The position numbers and the translations under genes are program-made. Shown one piece after another: positions 1,351-57,656 of a stretch of DNA of 64,000 bases. Each line of letters starts with the position of its first letter. The first letter of the stretch is position 1. Below the pieces are notes generated by a model. The model did not search any database, was not told where the DNA came from, and was given only the letters and a program-made list of their open reading frames with translations. The stretch is from Candidatus Methanoliparum thermophilum (GTDB lineage Archaea > Halobacteriota > Methanoliparia > Methanoliparales > Methanoliparaceae), in assembly GCA_004212075.1 (NCBI GenBank), contig RXIF01000012.1:62001-126000 (forward strand). Direction: 5' to 3'.

Positions 1351-1462
1351 TGCCGGGGGCGGGATTCGAGCCCGCGACCTTCAGATTGCCCAGGCGTCTT
1401 TTTAATCATTTATCAGATTCACCCTATGAGTCTGACGCCCTAACCAGCTAGGCCACCCCGGC
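1351..1462 (-). tRNA. tRNA-Met (CAU) with a 38-nt intron
   Basis: The minus strand folds as a cloverleaf: acceptor GCCGGGG/CCCCGGC with discriminator A, D stem GCCT/GGGC, anticodon stem TCAGA/TCTGA, loop CTCATAA and T stem GCGGG/CCCGC. The anticodon is CAU. The loop is interrupted after position 37 by an intron at about 1387-1424, the canonical archaeal site cut by the bulge-helix-bulge endonuclease. Exact boundaries may shift by a base because A residues flank the junction, and AATCTGA occurs both in the intron and at the exon 2 junction. Elongator Met is the likeliest identity; an Ile2 (lysidine/agmatidine type) CAU tRNA cannot be excluded from sequence alone. Confidence 0.92.
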
Positions 1463-15570: not shown

Positions 15571-15743
15571 TCTCCATTTTTTCCTTTTATGGATTGAAAT
15601 TTTCATGATGACGTAGGTTTCGTAGGAACGTCCATGGATAAGGGTGCGGTTTTTTGGGGGTTTTTGCTCGTTTTTTGCCCGTTTGTTTTTCCGCACCTCC
15701 TCCTACGATGCAAGTTTTTAGATTACCTATAAGGGATTGAAAT
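15571..15743 (+). repeat. Orphan CRISPR-repeat-like pair
   Basis: A 30-base segment at 15714-15743 ends AAGGGATTGAAAT and begins GTTTTTAGATTACC, the look of an archaeal/bacterial type I repeat with the ATTGAAA(N) 3' handle. A second, degenerate match ends in GGATTGAAAT at 15600; it agrees at 18 of 30 positions, mostly in the 3' half. The 113 bases between them are too long for one spacer and contain no third repeat. No cas gene is present in the window. Either a relic of an array or chance resemblance. Confidence 0.35.
15621..15707 (+). other. Two-tier inverted repeat between the CRISPR-like sequences
   Basis: CGTAGGA (15621-15627) pairs with TCCTACG (15701-15707), and inside it GGTGCGG (15643-15649) pairs with CCGCACC (15691-15697), leaving a G/T-rich loop of about 41 bases. 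The stem is far more GC-rich than its surroundings. It may encode a structured RNA or be a recombination end. No coding frame crosses it. Confidence 0.4.
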
Positions 15744-26394: not shown

Positions 26395-26435
26395 TACGAA
26401 TCTTTGATTCGTAGTTCACAAATTAAAATTTGTGA
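26395..26435 (-). repeat. Family 1 double-hairpin repeat, copy A
   Basis: Two adjacent perfect hairpins: TACGAATC/GATTCGTA (loop TTT, 26395-26413) and TCACAAATT/AATTTGTGA (loop AA, 26416-26435). It fills the space between enolase and NFACT, and the NFACT stop codon is part of the second hairpin. Other copies: 26505, 41281, 54274, 55939. Confidence 0.8.
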
Positions 26436-28509
26436 TAATTCTTGAGTTTCCTGGTGGCATAAAATTGGCAATATCCTCCTGTGTAAAAAGTTTTTTTGGA
26501 ATATCACAAACCAAAGGTTTGTGGTTTACGAAGCTTCGCTTCGTAATATCTCTAATCTCCTTCATGAAATATCTGTATATCCTCTTGGCTACATCGTTTG
26601 GATTTAATTCACCAGGTTCTAGTTCTACAATGTATTTTGCTCTTTTAGATATTGCACTCTTTGGTCCACCAATCACTCCACTGATATTATCCAAGATCAA
26701 ACCTTTTTGGTCTTTTTGGTCTGCATTACCTATAACCTGAAGGCTTAATCCGATAGAAACGTCCATCTTTACCTCCTTAAAATAGTTTCTTTTGCCTCTG
26801 ATAATAAAACTACCTTTTGGTACATATTCTCCTGATTCAGGCGTTTTAGATACCTGTTCTGGATAAACCCAGTAACAATCTCCCGAAAATGCTCCTATCT
26901 TCCAGAAATTAGAATAACTTGTGGCGAATATTGCCGCCTCCTCCATTGTTGTTAGAGGTACTTCTTTGTTATTAGTTTTAATAACAGTTGCAGGTGCACC
27001 TTGAATATCTGCATGGAAGAAGATATCGTTCTTCTCCATATATTTACTTACAATCTCCTCGTTGCTATCGGCATCTTTTCCTCCTATTATTAGAAAACCA
27101 TCCGATGAGTAGAACCACCTAAATCTATGATACCATCTTTTATCTCGTCTTCTGATAACCAATATTCTATTCGCATCTTGTTTTTCTTTTTTTTTCGCTT
27201 TTTCTAGCTCTTTTAAGAAGATATCTCTGGATTTGATAGCTCCATCCATCTTTTTCTTGAACTTTTTACTTTTTTCATAGTACTCTTCAGCATTATTGGA
27301 TAAATTTTTTTCGAGGAAGAGATCTATCGATCTTCCGTCTATATTAAGAGTTATCTTTTTTGCAGCACCATCTATATCCTTTATATAATCCAATCCTTTT
27401 ATTCCTGCATCTCTCTTCTTATTCAACAACTTTTTTATATCGTCAAAAGAATATCTTTCTGTTGCTTTATTTATGATACTCAATATCTCGTTGATCAGTG
27501 TGTATCTCTCATAAATTAGATCTCCTATCTCCTTGTTCTCCTCCGATCTGTTTTTATACTCCTTAATTGCTGCCTCTTGCCTAGAGATTATTCTTTCTAC
27601 CTTTGAACCTCCGTTTTTTTTCTTATCTTTATTCTTAAGCTCTACCGTCTTTTTCTCTTCTATGCTTTGAAAATATTCATCAATACAATTATTGAACCTT
27701 TCAAAATATCTTTTTTCATATTTTGAGAAAGATTGCATATCAATAGGAAAGAAACCGATCGGTTTTTTAGATGAATAGACGATGTTTGGTTTGATCTCTC
27801 CTGCATTTACCGATGATAGTAGTTTATATATCTCATTTGTCAATCTTTCTATCTCTTCTTCAGATAAATCTTTTATACTCGCTTTTTTATCGACGTTACA
27901 CCTTATACAGATCTCTTCTGCATAAACTCCACCAAATCCAAGAGTTAATGCTATCGTCTCTACAATATTTTTTTCAGACGTTAAAAAGATAGAATGGAGA
28001 TGCTCTCTTAAAAAATCCAAATATAAGGGGGTAAAAATCTCCTCAGGAAACGTATAACGATCTCCTGTCTTTATCTTTATACTACCTTGAATTACGTTAT
28101 CTTTCCAGCCAACTATCTCGAAGTTATCATCTAATAATAGGACGTTTCCGCCTGCAAAAAGTTCTACAAGAAGATTATATCTTTTTCCACCACGTCCTAT
28201 CTCTATGATTACTATCCTATCTAAGAGATACTGATATATAGATAATATAGCCCCGCCGGATATATATTTTCGAAGAAGCATTGCAAAACCTGTAGGGTTC
28301 TTTGGTGCTGGTGGAGGCGTATTTGAGATATAGATTTTACCATTAATATCAATTATAATATCTTTTCTGCCAAATGTATAGGAATAAAATCTGACCCTGA
28401 TTATATCATCGATCTGATATATCTTATCAATTTTACCTCCTATTATCTCCTCAAACTCTTTGACAATCGCTAAAATATCGAGACCTGACATCTCTTTTTT
28501 TTGCTGCAT
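26416..28509 (-). CDS. NFACT/RqcH-type ribosome quality control protein
   Basis: A 697-residue archaeal NFACT protein (NEMF/Rqc2/RqcH relative), which recognises nascent peptidyl-tRNA on stalled large subunits. It has the FbpA-like N domain with LLDRIVIIEI near residue 103 (the conserved tRNA-contacting Asp-Arg), helix-hairpin-helix segments, a coiled coil about 370-440, and the NFACT-R domain (WYHRFRWFYSSDGFLIIGG near 456, FFHADIQGAPATVIK near 497 and YVPKGSFIIRGKRNYF near 568). The C-terminal ~60 residues are odd: a palindromic repeat lies in frame (see copy B) and another supplies the stop. TATA-poor upstream; start ATG 28509 agrees with homologues. Confidence 0.93.
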   Translation of the reverse strand: MQQKKEMSGLDILAIVKEFEEIIGGKIDKIYQIDDIIRVRFYSYTFGRKDIIIDINGKIYISNTPPPAPKNPTGFAMLLRKYISGGAILSIYQYLLDRIVIIEIGRGGKRYNLLVELFAGGNVLLLDDNFEIVGWKDNVIQGSIKIKTGDRYTFPEEIFTPLYLDFLREHLHSIFLTSEKNIVETIALTLGFGGVYAEEICIRCNVDKKASIKDLSEEEIERLTNEIYKLLSSVNAGEIKPNIVYSSKKPIGFFPIDMQSFSKYEKRYFERFNNCIDEYFQSIEEKKTVELKNKDKKKNGGSKVERIISRQEAAIKEYKNRSEENKEIGDLIYERYTLINEILSIINKATERYSFDDIKKLLNKKRDAGIKGLDYIKDIDGAAKKITLNIDGRSIDLFLEKNLSNNAEEYYEKSKKFKKKMDGAIKSRDIFLKELEKAKKKEKQDANRILVIRRRDKRWYHRFRWFYSSDGFLIIGGKDADSNEEIVSKYMEKNDIFFHADIQGAPATVIKTNNKEVPLTTMEEAAIFATSYSNFWKIGAFSGDCYWVYPEQVSKTPESGEYVPKGSFIIRGKRNYFKEVKMDVSIGLSLQVIGNADQKDQKGLILDNISGVIGGPKSAISKRAKYIVELEPGELNPNDVAKRIYRYFMKEIRDITKRSFVNHKPLVCDIPKKLFTQEDIANFMPPGNSRIITNFNL
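26505..26546 (-). repeat. Family 1 double-hairpin repeat, copy B, inside the NFACT coding sequence
   Basis: CACAAACC/GGTTTGTG (loop AAA, 26505-26523) followed by TTACGAAGC/GCTTCGTAA (loop TTC, 26526-26546). It lies in frame in the last 45 codons of NFACT and encodes about ITKRSFVNHKPLVCD. Both stems differ from the other copies yet remain perfectly paired. Confidence 0.75.
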
Positions 28510-34556: not shown

Positions 34557-35744
34557 TCAACAATCTGTAATCGCTCTTTTAATCATCGCTCTTAGATATT
34601 TTCCGCTTGCTGGTGCCTCTACGATCGATATTCTGTTATTTTTGCTTAATACGGCAATAAAAGAGTTTAGATCCTCAGCCATTCTCTTTTCTCTCACGAT
34701 AACCGGAATGTTCATGCCAAACATCCGATCGTAATACAAACTTGCATTCTTACCTATGTTTTTATATAACAAGCTGATCACATCTAAAACAGTTTTTTCT
34801 GTATCGAAAGATGTTATCCATCCCATAGTAGCTGGTAACAAGACGGTTACTCCAAGCGTATCCTTATTCTCTTCCAAGATATTATAAACAACCGTTTTCA
34901 GATTATTACAGCTGGCTAAATCTAACCCAGTAGCTGTTTCAGGCGAGATAGTAGTATAAATCTCTTCTAACTCGATATTATCGACCGATTCATCATAACA
35001 ATGAGAGTTGATTATCTGTTTCCAACTTCTGCTGAATGTGCATGTTCTTCCTATTCTATCGTATTTAGTCTCTAAGTCTCTCATATCTATCCCGTATTTA
35101 TCAAGAACAGAGAGAAAATAATCCATATTTCTATCATCCAAAGGTCCTCTACAACCTTCGCATGGTTTTCCGCTACTTGTACAGATAGCATTGCACCCCG
35201 CCTCTGTAATCGGGCCAAGACAGAGTTCTCCTCTCTCAAGAAGACACGGCGTCCCGCTCATCCGGCATTCTGCACAGACAGGAAAATGCTTTCTAAACGG
35301 CTTTCTTTTTATAATTACAGAACGAATATAGTAGGTCAGTTCATCTATATTAATAGGACAGCCTTTTATATAATATTTTACATTTACCACGCTATTAACC
35401 GGTTTTAATCTCCAAGGTGGATTAAATGGGATATCTATACCAAAAAAATCCTCATAAGAAGGAATACCTCCAAAACATGCACACGACCCAACCGCTATAA
35501 TGGTATCCGATCTCTTACCAAGATCTTTTACCAAATCTTCCTCCCCTTTATTAGCTATTCCTCCCTCAATCAAGATGACATCGTATCTCTCTTCTAACTC
35601 ATTCTTTTTAGGATAAGAAAGATCTAAATGCTTTAGAATCTCCTCAAACTCCTTGCTTTTTTTATACAATTCAAATTGACACGTACCACAGGTTGTCAAT
35701 CGTATAATTGCAATTTTTTTCTTATCTACATCATGCAGAACCAA
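34557..35744 (-). CDS. Sulfhydrogenase delta (small)-like subunit with an extra C-terminal domain
   Basis: Residues 1-255 resemble the [NiFe]-hydrogenase small subunit of the HydD/MvhG type: TTCGTCQFELYK at 17, ILIEGGIANKGEE near 55, VGSCACFGGIPSY near 87, and cysteines in CAECRMSGTPCLLERGELCLGPITEAGC and CEGCRGP. Residues about 285-395 form an extension (VTVLLPATMGWITSFDTEKT... and SLYYDRMFGMNIPVIVREKR) I cannot assign. No large subunit is encoded anywhere in the window. The start is TTG 35744, placed 9 bases after GGAGGT within a palindromic repeat. It is the third gene of a B-G-D operon. Confidence 0.8.
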   Translation of the reverse strand: MVLHDVDKKKIAIIRLTTCGTCQFELYKKSKEFEEILKHLDLSYPKKNELEERYDVILIEGGIANKGEEDLVKDLGKRSDTIIAVGSCACFGGIPSYEDFFGIDIPFNPPWRLKPVNSVVNVKYYIKGCPINIDELTYYIRSVIIKRKPFRKHFPVCAECRMSGTPCLLERGELCLGPITEAGCNAICTSSGKPCEGCRGPLDDRNMDYFLSVLDKYGIDMRDLETKYDRIGRTCTFSRSWKQIINSHCYDESVDNIELEEIYTTISPETATGLDLASCNNLKTVVYNILEENKDTLGVTVLLPATMGWITSFDTEKTVLDVISLLYKNIGKNASLYYDRMFGMNIPVIVREKRMAEDLNSFIAVLSKNNRISIVEAPASGKYLRAMIKRAITDC

Positions 35745-35811
35745 GGTTCCTGCACCTCCTTAAGCAGTGTAGATTTATCCTACACAAGAGTGAAGAACAT
35801 TTGTTTTTCAT
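35735..35811 (-). repeat. Family 2 composite repeat carrying a Shine-Dalgarno and TTG start
   Basis: Read on the minus strand: AAACAAATGTTCTTCACTCTT (near 35808-35787), a GTGTAG/CTACAC hairpin (35767-35785), then AGGAGG and GCAGGAACCTTGGTTCTGC (35753-35735). The TTG in the last palindrome is the only plausible start for the delta-like subunit. The same order recurs at 56978-57084. Confidence 0.75.
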
Positions 35812-41195: not shown

Positions 41196-41280
41196 GATTA
41201 AATATAAATATAGAAATGCAAAGTAGATTATTTAACCTTTATTCGCTTTTATTTGCCTCGTTAATTTTTGTCAAGATGTT

Positions 41281-41320
41281 GCAAATCAAAGATTTGCAGC
41301 TCACGAATCTTCGATTCGTG
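41281..41320 (-). repeat. Family 1 double-hairpin repeat, copy D
   Basis: GCAAATC/GATTTGC (loop AAA, 41281-41297) then CACGAATC/GATTCGTG (loop TTC, 41302-41320), joined by AGCT. It supplies the last codons and stop of the 131-residue gene on the minus strand. About 85 bases beyond the purF stop. Confidence 0.8.
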
Positions 41321-41696
41321 ATGATTTTTTGCGTATTCTTGGTTGGCGATTTTTGATCTCTAAGAAATGATCTTTAGCAGTCTCCGTAAACAATTTGTTT
41401 TCTGGTACTTCTAATGGCGGTAATGCACTTATAACTGTATTTTGATCCGTTTTAATGATAATATTCTCTATAATCAACTCTTCTAGGATAGAGATCAAAG
41501 ATTCGACAGGGAGATCCACACTAATCTTTGAATCTTTCTCAATATAATTGTAAAAGAAATATATTATATCATCTATAGCAACTCCTCTCATTCCCAGAAA
41601 GGACATTAAAAATTGGTAATTTGAGTTTTGCATGAATCCATTAACCGCATAAACTATCAACGATCTAATAGCCAGTTCATCATATTCTTCTATCAT
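41301..41696 (-). CDS. Hypothetical protein, 131 residues
   Basis: Unrecognised soluble helical protein. The first half is hydrophobic-patterned (LAIRSLIVYAVNGFMQNSNYQFLMSFLGM) and the middle resembles a small winged-helix-like or regulatory segment (IDDIIYFFYNYIEKDSK, LISILEELIIENIIIK). The final residues (RIRKKSSRIEDS) are basic and run into a palindromic repeat, which contributes the TGA. It stands alone between purF and the PEBP gene. Composition and codon use are like its neighbours, so it is probably real. Confidence 0.6.
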   Translation of the reverse strand: MIEEYDELAIRSLIVYAVNGFMQNSNYQFLMSFLGMRGVAIDDIIYFFYNYIEKDSKISVDLPVESLISILEELIIENIIIKTDQNTVISALPPLEVPENKLFTETAKDHFLEIKNRQPRIRKKSSRIEDS

Positions 41697-44361: not shown

Positions 44362-44380
44362 ATTAACTCCTTCTCTTGAT

Positions 44381-44429
44381 GAAAACAAATGTTCTTCACT
44401 CTCAAGGAAGTGCAGAAACGTAGTTTTGC
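44381..44429 (+). repeat. Family 2 composite repeat, trpB-trpG copy
   Basis: GAAAACAAATGTTCTTCACTC at 44381-44401 matches the same segment at 35.8 kb (minus) and 57.0 kb. It is followed by GCAGAAAC-GTA-GTTTTGC (44412-44429), a changed but still paired version of the GCAGGAACC hairpin. It points against the operon direction and has no Shine-Dalgarno use here. Confidence 0.65.
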
Positions 44430-44436
44430 TTGATAA

Positions 44437-54273: not shown

Positions 54274-54313
54274 GCAAATCGAAGATTTGCGGCTCACAAA
54301 TTAAAATTTGTGA
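54274..54313 (+). repeat. Family 1 double-hairpin repeat, copy E
   Basis: GCAAATC/GATTTGC (loop GAA, 54274-54290) then TCACAAATT/AATTTGTGA (loop AA, 54294-54313), joined by GGC. It lies between mfnA and dph2, 10 bases before the dph2 ATG, so it is part of the transcript. Confidence 0.8.
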
Positions 54314-54322
54314 TGTTTAAAG

Positions 54323-55321
54323 ATGGATGATACATACGTGGTAGATCTGGAAGAGCTTTTTGCTTTGATCGATAGAAAAAAAGCAAAGATAGTAGGATTA
54401 CAGTTCCCAGACGGTTTGGTACGTTTTTTTCAAGATATTAAGGAAAAATTGGAGGATAAAAGGGATATTTTAGTCTTATTATCTGGTAATTCCTCTTTTG
54501 GTAGTTGTGATATAGATTTTGATCTTTTAAATATTGTAGATCTTCTATTTCATTTCGGTCATACGAGTATGTTCAAGATTGATAAGGTGGAGTATATACC
54601 TGTTAAGATTAAATTGAGAGAGGATATTTTGGAAGATCTATTGAAAAAATCGCTTTCTTACATAATCTCAAATAAGATATCTCTGGTAACCACTCCTCAA
54701 TATAAAGACTATCTACTTAATATTAGAGATTTTTATGAAGAGAACGGCATAACATGCTCGATCAACGAAGGAGATAATCGGGTTAAAGATAGAGGTATAG
54801 TCTTGGGATGCAATTTTTCAGCCGCAAAAGGGGCTGGAAAAGAAGTAATCTTTTTAGGAGACGGAAGTTTTCATCCGATCGGTATAAAGATTGCAACTCA
54901 GAAGAGAGTGATTAGGATAGACCCTTTGATACAAGATATAGAAGAGATAAGAGTGGAAAAGTTGTTAAAACAGAGATATGCCCTCATATCTAAATCGATA
55001 GGATTTAAATCAGCAGGAATACTTGTAAGTAATAAAATAGGTCAAAATAGATTTGATTTGGCACAAAGATTGTATAAAGAGACGTTAAATAGAGGATACA
55101 AAGCGTATCTTATATACATGAATTTAATACGCCCTGAATCAATTGGATTAAAAGTAGATATTCTTGTAAATACAGCATGCCCTAGAATTGCAATAGATGA
55201 TTATATCTCGTTTGATAAACCAATCTTGACTCCAATAGAGTTTAACATGATACTAAAAGATAAAATTATGGAATATCGGATGGATGAGATAAGGGAAGAG
55301 GATATTTATCCAACATTTTAA
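54323..55321 (+). CDS. dph2: Diphthamide synthase Dph2
   Basis: A radical (ACP-forming) SAM enzyme that starts diphthamide on elongation factor 2. 332 residues with the three cluster cysteines in SSFGSCDIDFDLLN near 58, GCNFSAAK near 163 and NTACPRIAIDDY near 284, and IVGLQFPDGLVRFFQDI at the start. All archaea with diphthamide have this single-gene homodimer. Followed 9 bases later by the methylase gene. Confidence 0.93.
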   Translation: MDDTYVVDLEELFALIDRKKAKIVGLQFPDGLVRFFQDIKEKLEDKRDILVLLSGNSSFGSCDIDFDLLNIVDLLFHFGHTSMFKIDKVEYIPVKIKLREDILEDLLKKSLSYIISNKISLVTTPQYKDYLLNIRDFYEENGITCSINEGDNRVKDRGIVLGCNFSAAKGAGKEVIFLGDGSFHPIGIKIATQKRVIRIDPLIQDIEEIRVEKLLKQRYALISKSIGFKSAGILVSNKIGQNRFDLAQRLYKETLNRGYKAYLIYMNLIRPESIGLKVDILVNTACPRIAIDDYISFDKPILTPIEFNMILKDKIMEYRMDEIREEDIYPTF

Positions 55322-55921: not shown

Positions 55922-55938
55922 AACTAAGTTTTAAACAT

Positions 55939-55979
55939 CACGAATCGAAAATTCGTGAGCTTCAAATCTTCGATTTGAA
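55939..55979 (+). repeat. Family 1 double-hairpin repeat, copy F
   Basis: CACGAAT/ATTCGTG (loop CGAAA, 55939-55957) then TTCAAATC/GATTTGAA (loop TTC, 55961-55979), joined by AGC. The order of the two hairpins is the reverse of copies D and E, so this copy is inverted. It lies between the methylase and csl4 genes. Confidence 0.8.
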
Positions 55980-56039
55980 ACATAAATTGGTATAAATTCC
56001 GTCTTTAATACCGGATTATAATTTTTACGAGGTGATTAT

Positions 56040-56612
56040 ATGGAAAAGAAGATAGAAATTGAGGAAAAAATCGTACTTCCAGGCGATTTTATATGTACCA
56101 CTGAAGAATATGTACCTGGAAGCAATACTTATAACAATGAGGGAGGTATCTGTTCTTCCATTATTGGTATTGTAAAATTAGATGATAAACTACACAAGAT
56201 AGATGTACTACCACTGGTTATGGTTCCACCTGAAATAAAACAAGACTCTATTGTTCTTGGTAAGATTATTCTTCTAAAAAATTCGTTTGCAGTCTTAAAC
56301 ATAGAGAGAGTTAAAGGATACGAGAATAGATCCGCAAACGTGGAAGGGACTATACATATATCGAATATACAACTTACATATATAAAGACGATAGACAAAG
56401 CGTTTAATGTCGGTGATATTGTGAAAGCAAAGGTAATAAGCAACAACCCACTACGATTAACAACTCGAGACAAGAATCTGGGTGTTATAAAGGCATTCTG
56501 TCCTGTTTGTGGAGAGGCTTTGGAGAAGAAGGGAAAAGGATTGAAATGTTCCAGATGTAATACCATATATCAACGAAAAATATCCGAAGATTATGGATGG
56601 GGGATGTTTTAG
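56040..56612 (+). CDS. csl4: Exosome subunit Csl4
   Basis: RNA-binding cap protein of the archaeal exosome. 190 residues: N-terminal barrel (VLPGDFICTTEEYVPGSNTYNN), an S1 domain (about 75-135) and a C-terminal zinc ribbon (CPVCGEALEKKGKGLKCSRC). Start ATG 56040 follows a GAGGTGAT ribosome-binding site. Its TAG stop shares a base with the GTG start of rpo11. Confidence 0.93.
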   Translation: MEKKIEIEEKIVLPGDFICTTEEYVPGSNTYNNEGGICSSIIGIVKLDDKLHKIDVLPLVMVPPEIKQDSIVLGKIILLKNSFAVLNIERVKGYENRSANVEGTIHISNIQLTYIKTIDKAFNVGDIVKAKVISNNPLRLTTRDKNLGVIKAFCPVCGEALEKKGKGLKCSRCNTIYQRKISEDYGWGMF

Positions 56613-56899
56613 TGGAATTAAAAGTATTTGATCGAACAGAAAAGGAATTAAAGGTAGAAATTAGGGAAGAAGATGACACTTTGCTGAACCTTTTACAAGA
56701 TGCATTATTGAAAGATAAACGTGTTTTAAGGGTGGTATATAATATAAGATTCCCATATTCGAGCAACCCCCTCCTTTATTTAAGGACGGATGGGACTGAT
56801 CCGGTAAAGGTTTTGTTAGATACATGTAACAATCTGTTAGATGAGTTATCCGAATTTAAATCCTCTTTTAACAGATCTTTCTCTAACAATGATGATTGA
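56612..56899 (+). CDS. rpo11: RNA polymerase subunit Rpo11 (L)
   Basis: A 95-residue homologue of eukaryotic RPB11. The GTG at 56612 gives (M)ELKVFDRTEKELKVEI, the normal Rpo11 start; GGGGGA lies about 7 bases upstream. The core is the family's LLNLLQDALLKDKRVLRVVYNIRFP segment, followed by PLLYLRTDGTDPVKVL. It pairs with Rpo3 to seed polymerase assembly. An ATG at 56597 would add five residues. Overlaps csl4 as TAGTG. Confidence 0.93.
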   Translation: MELKVFDRTEKELKVEIREEDDTLLNLLQDALLKDKRVLRVVYNIRFPYSSNPLLYLRTDGTDPVKVLLDTCNNLLDELSEFKSSFNRSFSNNDD

Positions 56900-56904
56900 A
56901 AACC

Positions 56905-57084
56905 TCGATTTGCAACATCATAAAGCTGGACTATGTTTTATCATTACGTTTCGTAAAATCTGTTTTCAAAGGGAGGTGCAGGAACCTTGGTTCTGCTTGA
57001 AAACAAATGTTCTTCACTCTTGTCCAGCGCAAGGCTGGACTGTGCTTTATCAATCGCAAGGAGGTGCAGGAACCTTGGTTCTGC
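56905..57084 (+). repeat. Tandem array of family 2 repeats with half a family 1 unit
   Basis: After rpo11 come: a half family 1 unit (TCGATTTGCAACATC, 56905-56919); GCTGGACTATGTTTTATCA; a TTACG/CGTAA hairpin; GGGAGGTGCAGG... with the 19-base palindrome at 56978-56996; GAAAACAAATGTTCTTCACTC at 56999-57019; a GTCCAGC/GCTGGAC hairpin (57022-57040); TGTGCTTTATCA; then AAGGAGG and a second identical palindrome at 57066-57084. The 3' copy supplies ribosome-binding site and TTG start of the next gene. Confidence 0.75.
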
Positions 57085-57656
57085 ATACAATGAGATTTAA
57101 AGAGAACATACGGGTTATTGGCATAGATGATGCATTTCTTGATGATAGATACTCTATATTGATAGGCGTCATATTGAGAGGCAGATATGTTTTAGAGGGA
57201 GTTTTATCATCAAAGATACATATCGATGGGCTCGATGCTAATGAGAAAATAAGAGAGATGATAATCGGCTCGACTTATCTAAAACAGATAAAAGTGATTA
57301 TGCTGGATGGAATAACCGTCGGTGGATTCAACCTTGTAGATATAAAGTTATTGTACGATGAGACGAATATTCCAGTGATAGCAGTAATAAAAAGACAACC
57401 CGATTTTGATAAGATATACAGTGCATTGGAAAATTTAGCAGATAAAGATAAAAGAATGGCAATAATAAAAAACTGTGGTGATATAAACTCTTTTTTGTAT
57501 AAAGGTAATAAGATACTATATCAAATGTCAGGATTCGATAAAAAAGAGGATTGTGAGTTTCTTATAAAAAAATTTTCCGTTAATTCGATTATTCCTGAGC
57601 CTATACGGATAGCCCATTTGGTGGCATCAGGAATAACAAAAGGGCGAAATAGATAA
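57075..57656 (+). CDS. UPF0215/DUF99 family protein
   Basis: A 193-residue archaeal DUF99 protein with an endonuclease V-like fold: IRVIGIDDAFLDDRYSILIGVILRG near 10, VLSSKIHIDGLDANEKI near 45, VIMLDGITVGGFNLVDI near 77, IPVIAVIKRQPDFDKIYSAL near 101 and EPIRIAHLVASGITKGR at the end. Function unknown. TTG 57075 lies 9 bases after GGAGG inside a repeat and is in frame; ATG 57090 is possible but lacks a site. A longer upstream frame is only repeat sequence. Confidence 0.88.
   Translation: MVLHTMRFKENIRVIGIDDAFLDDRYSILIGVILRGRYVLEGVLSSKIHIDGLDANEKIREMIIGSTYLKQIKVIMLDGITVGGFNLVDIKLLYDETNIPVIAVIKRQPDFDKIYSALENLADKDKRMAIIKNCGDINSFLYKGNKILYQMSGFDKKEDCEFLIKKFSVNSIIPEPIRIAHLVASGITKGRNR

Follow-up and report, generated by a model that had tools for sequence, protein, structure and literature searches.

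A short modular palindromic element in Candidatus Methanoliparia genomes is probably tolerated in frame within protein genes, with start signals captured locally

Results

A dispersed palindromic element that enters genes

We analyzed a stretch of 64,000 nucleotides from Candidatus Methanoliparum thermophilum (the window) together with its host assembly, a draft of 1.26 Mb in 12 contigs that is 86% complete (G000). The repeat preceding a hydrogenase-like delta gene in this window is, very probably, one copy of a short palindromic element of modular build, which spreads in Candidatus Methanoliparia genomes and is tolerated in frame within genes, its delivery of translation starts being a by-product that was captured locally.

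A first-pass annotation had placed the palindrome GCAGGAACCTTGGTTCTGC before the delta gene and before a UPF0215 gene. Both copies are exact, at 35735-35753 (-) and 57066-57084 (+), and a third exact copy, overlooked at that time, lies at 56978-56996 (+). Three or more matches to GCAGGAACCTTGGTTCTGC with at most three mismatches were found in 0 of 100 shuffles of the window. The shared string reported ahead of the palindrome, AGGAGGTG, does adjoin it at 35753-35760 (-) and 57059-57066 (+), and the third copy has GGGAGGTG in its place. Furthermore, the central TTG is in frame with delta (35742-35744, -) and with UPF0215 (57075-57077, +), and both proteins open with (M)VLH, encoded in each case by TTG-GTT-CTG-CAT, just as had been described. 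The repeat has a full Shine-Dalgarno match; the spacing of 9 bases given for GGAGG applies from GGAGGT to the TTG, the spacing from GGAGG itself being 10 nt. The family-2 features of the window are as follows.

35734..35810 (-): 77-bp family-2 element, beginning with the first base past the gamma-subunit stop and reaching the 5' end of the delta ORF, aligned with genomic copies
35735..35753 (-): 3' terminal palindrome GCAGGAACCTTGGTTCTGC, exact match
35753..35760 (-): AGGAGGTG, Shine-Dalgarno-like, also predicted to pair with the element's 5' arm (sequence and RNA fold)
35742..35744 (-): TTG, sole in-frame start upstream of the conserved delta RLTTCGTCQFEL (frame and orthologue comparison)
34557..35744 (-): hydrogenase/oxidoreductase delta-like gene (ORF and Pfam Oxidored_q6) with a probable element-donated start
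56897..56997 (+): degenerate family-2 unit whose TGA closes the upstream ORF 56597-56899 (genomic copies and comparison with the same-genus genome G001)
56998..57085 (+): full-length family-2 unit, 88 bp, in tandem with the preceding unit and directly before the native ATG at 57090; absent in G001
57066..57084 (+): palindrome, exact match; UPF0215 (Pfam Endo_dU) is read in the frame of its TTG 57075-57077
44380..44430 (+): degenerate family-2 copy TGAAAACAAATGTTCTTCACTCTCAAGGAAGTGCAGAAACGTAGTTTTGC, antisense in the trpB 5' region, boundaries approximate

Chained hairpins in two families

GCAGGAACCTTGGTTCTGC is the 3' hairpin of a modular palindromic element of 65-90 bp (family 2), whose full unit reads TGAAAACAAATGTTCTTCACTCTTG-TCCAGC..GCTGGA-...-AGGAGGTGCAGGAACCTTGGTTCTGCA. 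The elements are chains of 19-21 nt hairpins: three make up family 2, and family 1 is a double hairpin of ~42 bp with the core CRAATCNNNGATTYG and the full form TACGAATCNNNGATTCGTA-GC-TCACAAATCNNNGATTTGTGA. In some family-2 copies a family-1 double hairpin is nested, flanked by GAGGTG and CAGGAACC in one arrangement and by AAATGTT and CTTCAC in the other. DNA folding of the four most complete family-2 copies gave three hairpins in three of them and nearly so in the fourth, and in the delta copy the middle stem has diverged in sequence with its pairing kept. The family-1 double hairpin folds strongly (z -5.4). Examined for the terminal inverted repeats of a MITE, family 2 has only the short, imperfect ends TGAAAAC / TGCAGAAC. 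Both families are stop-free in several frames, which would make insertions into genes tolerable.

RNA folding of one full family-2 copy paired GGAGGTGCAGGAAC with GTTCTTCACTC, the Shine-Dalgarno-like string thus being a palindrome arm as well. GGAGGTGCAGGAAC is also able to pair with the family-2 5' arm TTCTTCACTC, and this pairing would account for the Shine-Dalgarno match without selection for translation.

Start signals are probably captured at individual genes

At the delta locus the element adjoins the gamma-subunit stop with no base between them and has its other end within the delta start region. In genomes G002 and G004, delta has its own ATG ~10 bp past the gamma stop. In the host, the one ATG close to where delta formerly began is out of frame (GATGTAGATAAG), and the frame is shut by a TAA just before GGAGG. 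The element's TTG is therefore the only usable start before the conserved RLTTCGTCQFEL, and it is probably the start that delta uses. The earlier suggestion that the repeat delivers a start to unrelated genes probably holds for delta, and it weakens at UPF0215 and NrdD, both of which have alternative in-frame ATGs. The stop-to-stop ORF of UPF0215 (56841-57656) extends well upstream, and an in-frame native ATG lies 15 nt downstream of the element's TTG, with the Shine-Dalgarno string favoring the TTG. At the same junction in G001 the ATG overlaps the upstream gene as TAATG, in a translationally coupled arrangement, and both tandem units are absent; in the host these two family-2 units part the upstream gene from the native ATG. 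In NrdD (C1:68614) the element's TTG is in frame, and so is an upstream ATG-AAA-ACA.. at the element's 5' end.

Across the genome, 7-8 copies retain an intact GGAGG...TTG. Three of these stand in frame at a gene 5' end (delta, UPF0215 and NrdD), one lies in the middle of FeoB with the frame reading through as GGAGTLVLH, and the others are antisense, in an upstream tandem unit or adjoining a tRNA. Many further family-2 copies have GTA or TAG for TTG, or a nested hairpin that splits GGAGG from TTG. With in-frame starts at only 3 of the 7-8 intact copies, and ~25 sites in total, start delivery is not supported as the purpose of the element; in-frame starts make up the minority of genomic copies, an outcome that the first-pass annotation had itself named as speaking against its proposal.

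A dedicated regulatory module, kept at gene 5' ends for its Shine-Dalgarno sequence and TTG and perhaps controlling access to the former through a hairpin, would explain why, at all three genes, a full anti-Shine-Dalgarno match (AGGAGGTG) is set 10 nt ahead of an in-frame TTG, and why GGAGGTG pairs with the 5' arm in RNA folding. It would also suit a genome in which Shine-Dalgarno motifs are in use, which is plausible since such motifs precede 22 of 42 ATG-start genes of the window against a background of ~10%. However, copies occur equally in the middle of genes, at 3' ends, antisense and between genes, and such a module would have to accommodate the GTA and TAG variants, the in-frame ATGs upstream in NrdD and downstream in UPF0215, and relatives that have the same genes without the element. 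We consider a module of this kind improbable, and adaptive start delivery is unlikely to be the primary role; at delta, UPF0215 and NrdD, signals that are present in the element by chance seem to have been captured locally.

Elements lie in frame within protein genes

Comparison with orthologues that are without the elements places them, with high confidence in both the element and its in-frame insertion, inside protein-coding genes. FeoB contains a 22-aa element insert (..YENRRSSLLVEKSPGGAGTLVLHENR-LKPQ..) that separates the G domain from the cytosolic helical domain (Pfam FeoB_N / FeoB_Cyto), and none is found in the G001 FeoB, which is 79% identical. Inserts of 15 aa derived from family 1 occur once each in CofE, IorA and a CobN-like chelatase and twice (15 + 15 aa) in Tmk, the relatives again being without them. 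Where the edges are clean and the orthologous site is empty, internal copies lengthen the gene by complete codons, the net gain commonly being 45 bp exactly. Insertions are also probable in DNA polymerase D, an NFACT-domain protein and an ABC ATPase, with insert edges blurred by other length changes: relative to orthologues the insert amounts to 11 aa in the ABC ATPase and ~12 aa in NFACT, and in the DNA polymerase D large subunit the C-terminal QKKLSYFL motif is still in frame downstream. The reverse case is seen in G002 (Methanolliviera), where PurD, TldD and MetAP have inserts of 18, 16 and 32 aa that are lacking in G003/G004 and in the host genome. Family 1 mostly yields the recurring peptide TNxRFVxxxSxIx; the reading of family 2 differs by gene, with GGAGTLVLH in FeoB and RRCGNVVLH in DNA polymerase D. 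Of the other copies, some give a protein its C-terminal tail together with the stop codon, and some fall between genes. The window contains the following family-1 and family-1-like copies.

26505..26546 (-): family-1 double hairpin, in frame in the NFACT-domain gene, ~12 aa net, GATATT direct-repeat flanks; G001 and G004 orthologues without it
26395..26435 (-): family-1-like hairpins giving the same NFACT gene its C-terminus and TGA stop
41280..41321 (-): family-1 double hairpin whose TGA ends ORF 41301-41696
54274..54313 (+): two family-1-like hairpins, paired, within the leader of the gene that begins at 54323
55938..55981 (+): intergenic pair of family-1-like hairpins

The placement census covered family 1 on contigs 1-5 and family 2 through its search matches. 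Sorting of ORFs by eye, with orthologue support for some of the clusters only, placed 41 family-1 clusters on contigs 1-5: ~7 are internal and in frame, 6 are C-terminal with the element often giving the stop, ~5 are ambiguous N-terminal cases and the others are apparently intergenic.

From the open frames and preserved downstream domains we infer that translation turns the inserts into additional surface loops or termini; AlphaFold2 models of Tmk and CofE had a mean pLDDT of ~40, too poor for loop placement. Alternatively, the inserts might be cut from the RNA, in the manner of introns or fragment-excising hairpins, leaving the proteins unchanged. Hairpin introns are spliced from tRNA and a few mRNAs in archaea, and the hairpins found here are strong. 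Yet the open frames and whole-codon additions of the internal copies would be needless under excision, and at 3' ends the element stops fit the gene ends, so that we regard removal from RNA as very improbable.

Separately, Methanolliviera Tmk (G002, L223) has its own, different insert at the site of the host's second Tmk insert, which suggests a tolerated hot spot, plus an NQRF-type insert. LysS of the same genome (L137) has a 33-aa insert near its N-terminus with the motifs NRRFAYA and KNQRFLS, probably another insertion of family-1 type. In a mevalonate-kinase-like ORF (L229:2996-4051, -) the C-terminus is replaced by two family-1 elements, one of them FTNQGFVSNESLIRTS and the other terminal.

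Distribution and signs of mobility

BLAST found 19-26 family-2 matches in the host assembly, and ~25 distinct sites when variants were counted, bearing out the earlier description of a dispersed, mobile-looking repeat. In the host genome the family-1 core CRAATCNNNGATTYG is counted 64 times, with 8 copies in G001 and 109, 61 and 78 in three genomes of the same family; elsewhere in the phylum, 55 genomes contain 0-4 cores, and a backward-pattern control gave 0 in the host's family. By lysyl-tRNA synthetase, the nearest named relatives of the host are archaeon UBA8915 (87% identical) and Candidatus Methanolliviera (62-67%), in keeping with a host from Candidatus Methanoliparia. Errors of assembly, or palindromes arising by chance in AT-rich DNA, are extremely improbable as an explanation, despite the 12 contigs and incompleteness of the draft: the 64 cores stand against none in the control, and the independent assemblies of relatives bear their own copies at other sites, observations that already contradict it.

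The exact element core had no match across all GTDB contigs or viral contigs, phage records gave no match to the element, and Rfam gave no family at it. CRISPR repeats were rejected as its identity, there being no spacer array at the elements. Elsewhere in the window, a single CRISPR-DR2 direct repeat passed the Rfam gathering score at 15714-15743 (-), and a tRNA match of 112 nt lies at 1351-1462 (-), a length that suggests an intron-containing tRNA gene.

Direct repeats of ~4-6 nt recur on the two sides of 18-21 double-hairpin copies, beyond the level given by permuting the flanks among 18 copies (mean 4.0 versus 3.26 permuted, p ~0.0008; the flanks are GAT-biased and the empty sites diverged); GATATT in NFACT, GAGATA in the chelatase gene and ATGTT at a nested copy are examples. 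This suggests insertion with target duplication, through a direct-repeat signal that is modest and comes from flanks sharing a GAT-like bias. The single-strand transposase Y1_Tnp (RAYT) was found in neither G000 (86% complete), G001 nor G002, and is present in G003 and G004.

Discussion

Under the explanation that we favor, element copies would spread through Methanoliparia genomes, including into housekeeping genes, and purifying selection would remove insertions that break the frame. A copy landing at a gene 5' end could replace lost native signals with AGGAGGTG...TTG, as is best seen in delta, and at a gene 3' end its TGA may become the stop codon. Start delivery would therefore be a by-product captured locally by selection.

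A bolder reading, which we hold only tentatively and think less probable than not, is that of an archaeal selfish DNA family that evolved to live inside genes, arose independently of Rickettsia and moves by an undescribed mechanism. In that case the stop-free modules, the 45-bp whole-codon insertion and the Shine-Dalgarno-TTG and TGA signals would together make even essential genes colonisable.

Mobile-looking DNA appears to add peptide segments to core proteins (DNA polymerase, thymidylate kinase, cofactor genes) in another domain of life. The paired filled and empty orthologues form a natural set for direct tests of how well proteins tolerate such inserts and of how start and stop codons turn over.

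Among known systems, the REP/RAYT palindromes (PMC3733652) resemble the Methanoliparia element in being imperfect palindromes of 20-40 nt that are often paired; in contrast, many Methanoliparia copies lie in coding sequence and the host genome has no Y1 transposase. MITEs, including ERIC and the archaeal MITEs reviewed in PMC10969869, are likewise short, non-autonomous and hairpin-forming, can fuse in frame when intragenic, and possibly share target-site duplications with the element, which differs from them in its weak, imperfect terminal inverted repeats, its chained short hairpins and the lack of a parent transposon in the search for the Y1_Tnp family.

Protein-coding palindromic repeats are also described from Wolbachia (Ogata, Suhre, Claverie 2005, as summarized in PMC3733652), a likeness from outside Rickettsia, although Wolbachia is still an alphaproteobacterium. 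The open literature, which leaves out most subscription papers, gave no report of palindromes in archaeal coding genes, and as far as we found the in-frame habit was earlier described only in Rickettsia and Wolbachia. In-frame palindromic insertion, once a peculiarity of the former and then of the latter, is now seen in a class of oil-degrading archaea.

As far as the accounts in PMC10969869 and PMC3733652 go, Rickettsia palindromic elements (RPEs; Ogata et al. 2000, 2002) are dispersed palindromes, many of them in frame in unrelated housekeeping genes, with several families per genome and intergenic copies as well. The host genome likewise has repeated palindromic, hairpin-forming DNA in many copies, inserted in frame in unrelated protein genes with element-free orthologues. 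By the same accounts RPEs belong to an intracellular bacterium and measure ~150 bp, whereas the tolerated element of this archaeon consists of modular nested hairpins of 42-90 bp and additionally gives starts and stops. The comparison is one of behavior, with the use of a recurring frame only partly matched, and we accordingly say that the element works like an RPE and claim no membership. Altogether, RPEs would be its closest functional analogue, and the phenomenon is best likened to an archaeal counterpart of them with occasional capture of start signals and no dedicated regulatory module.
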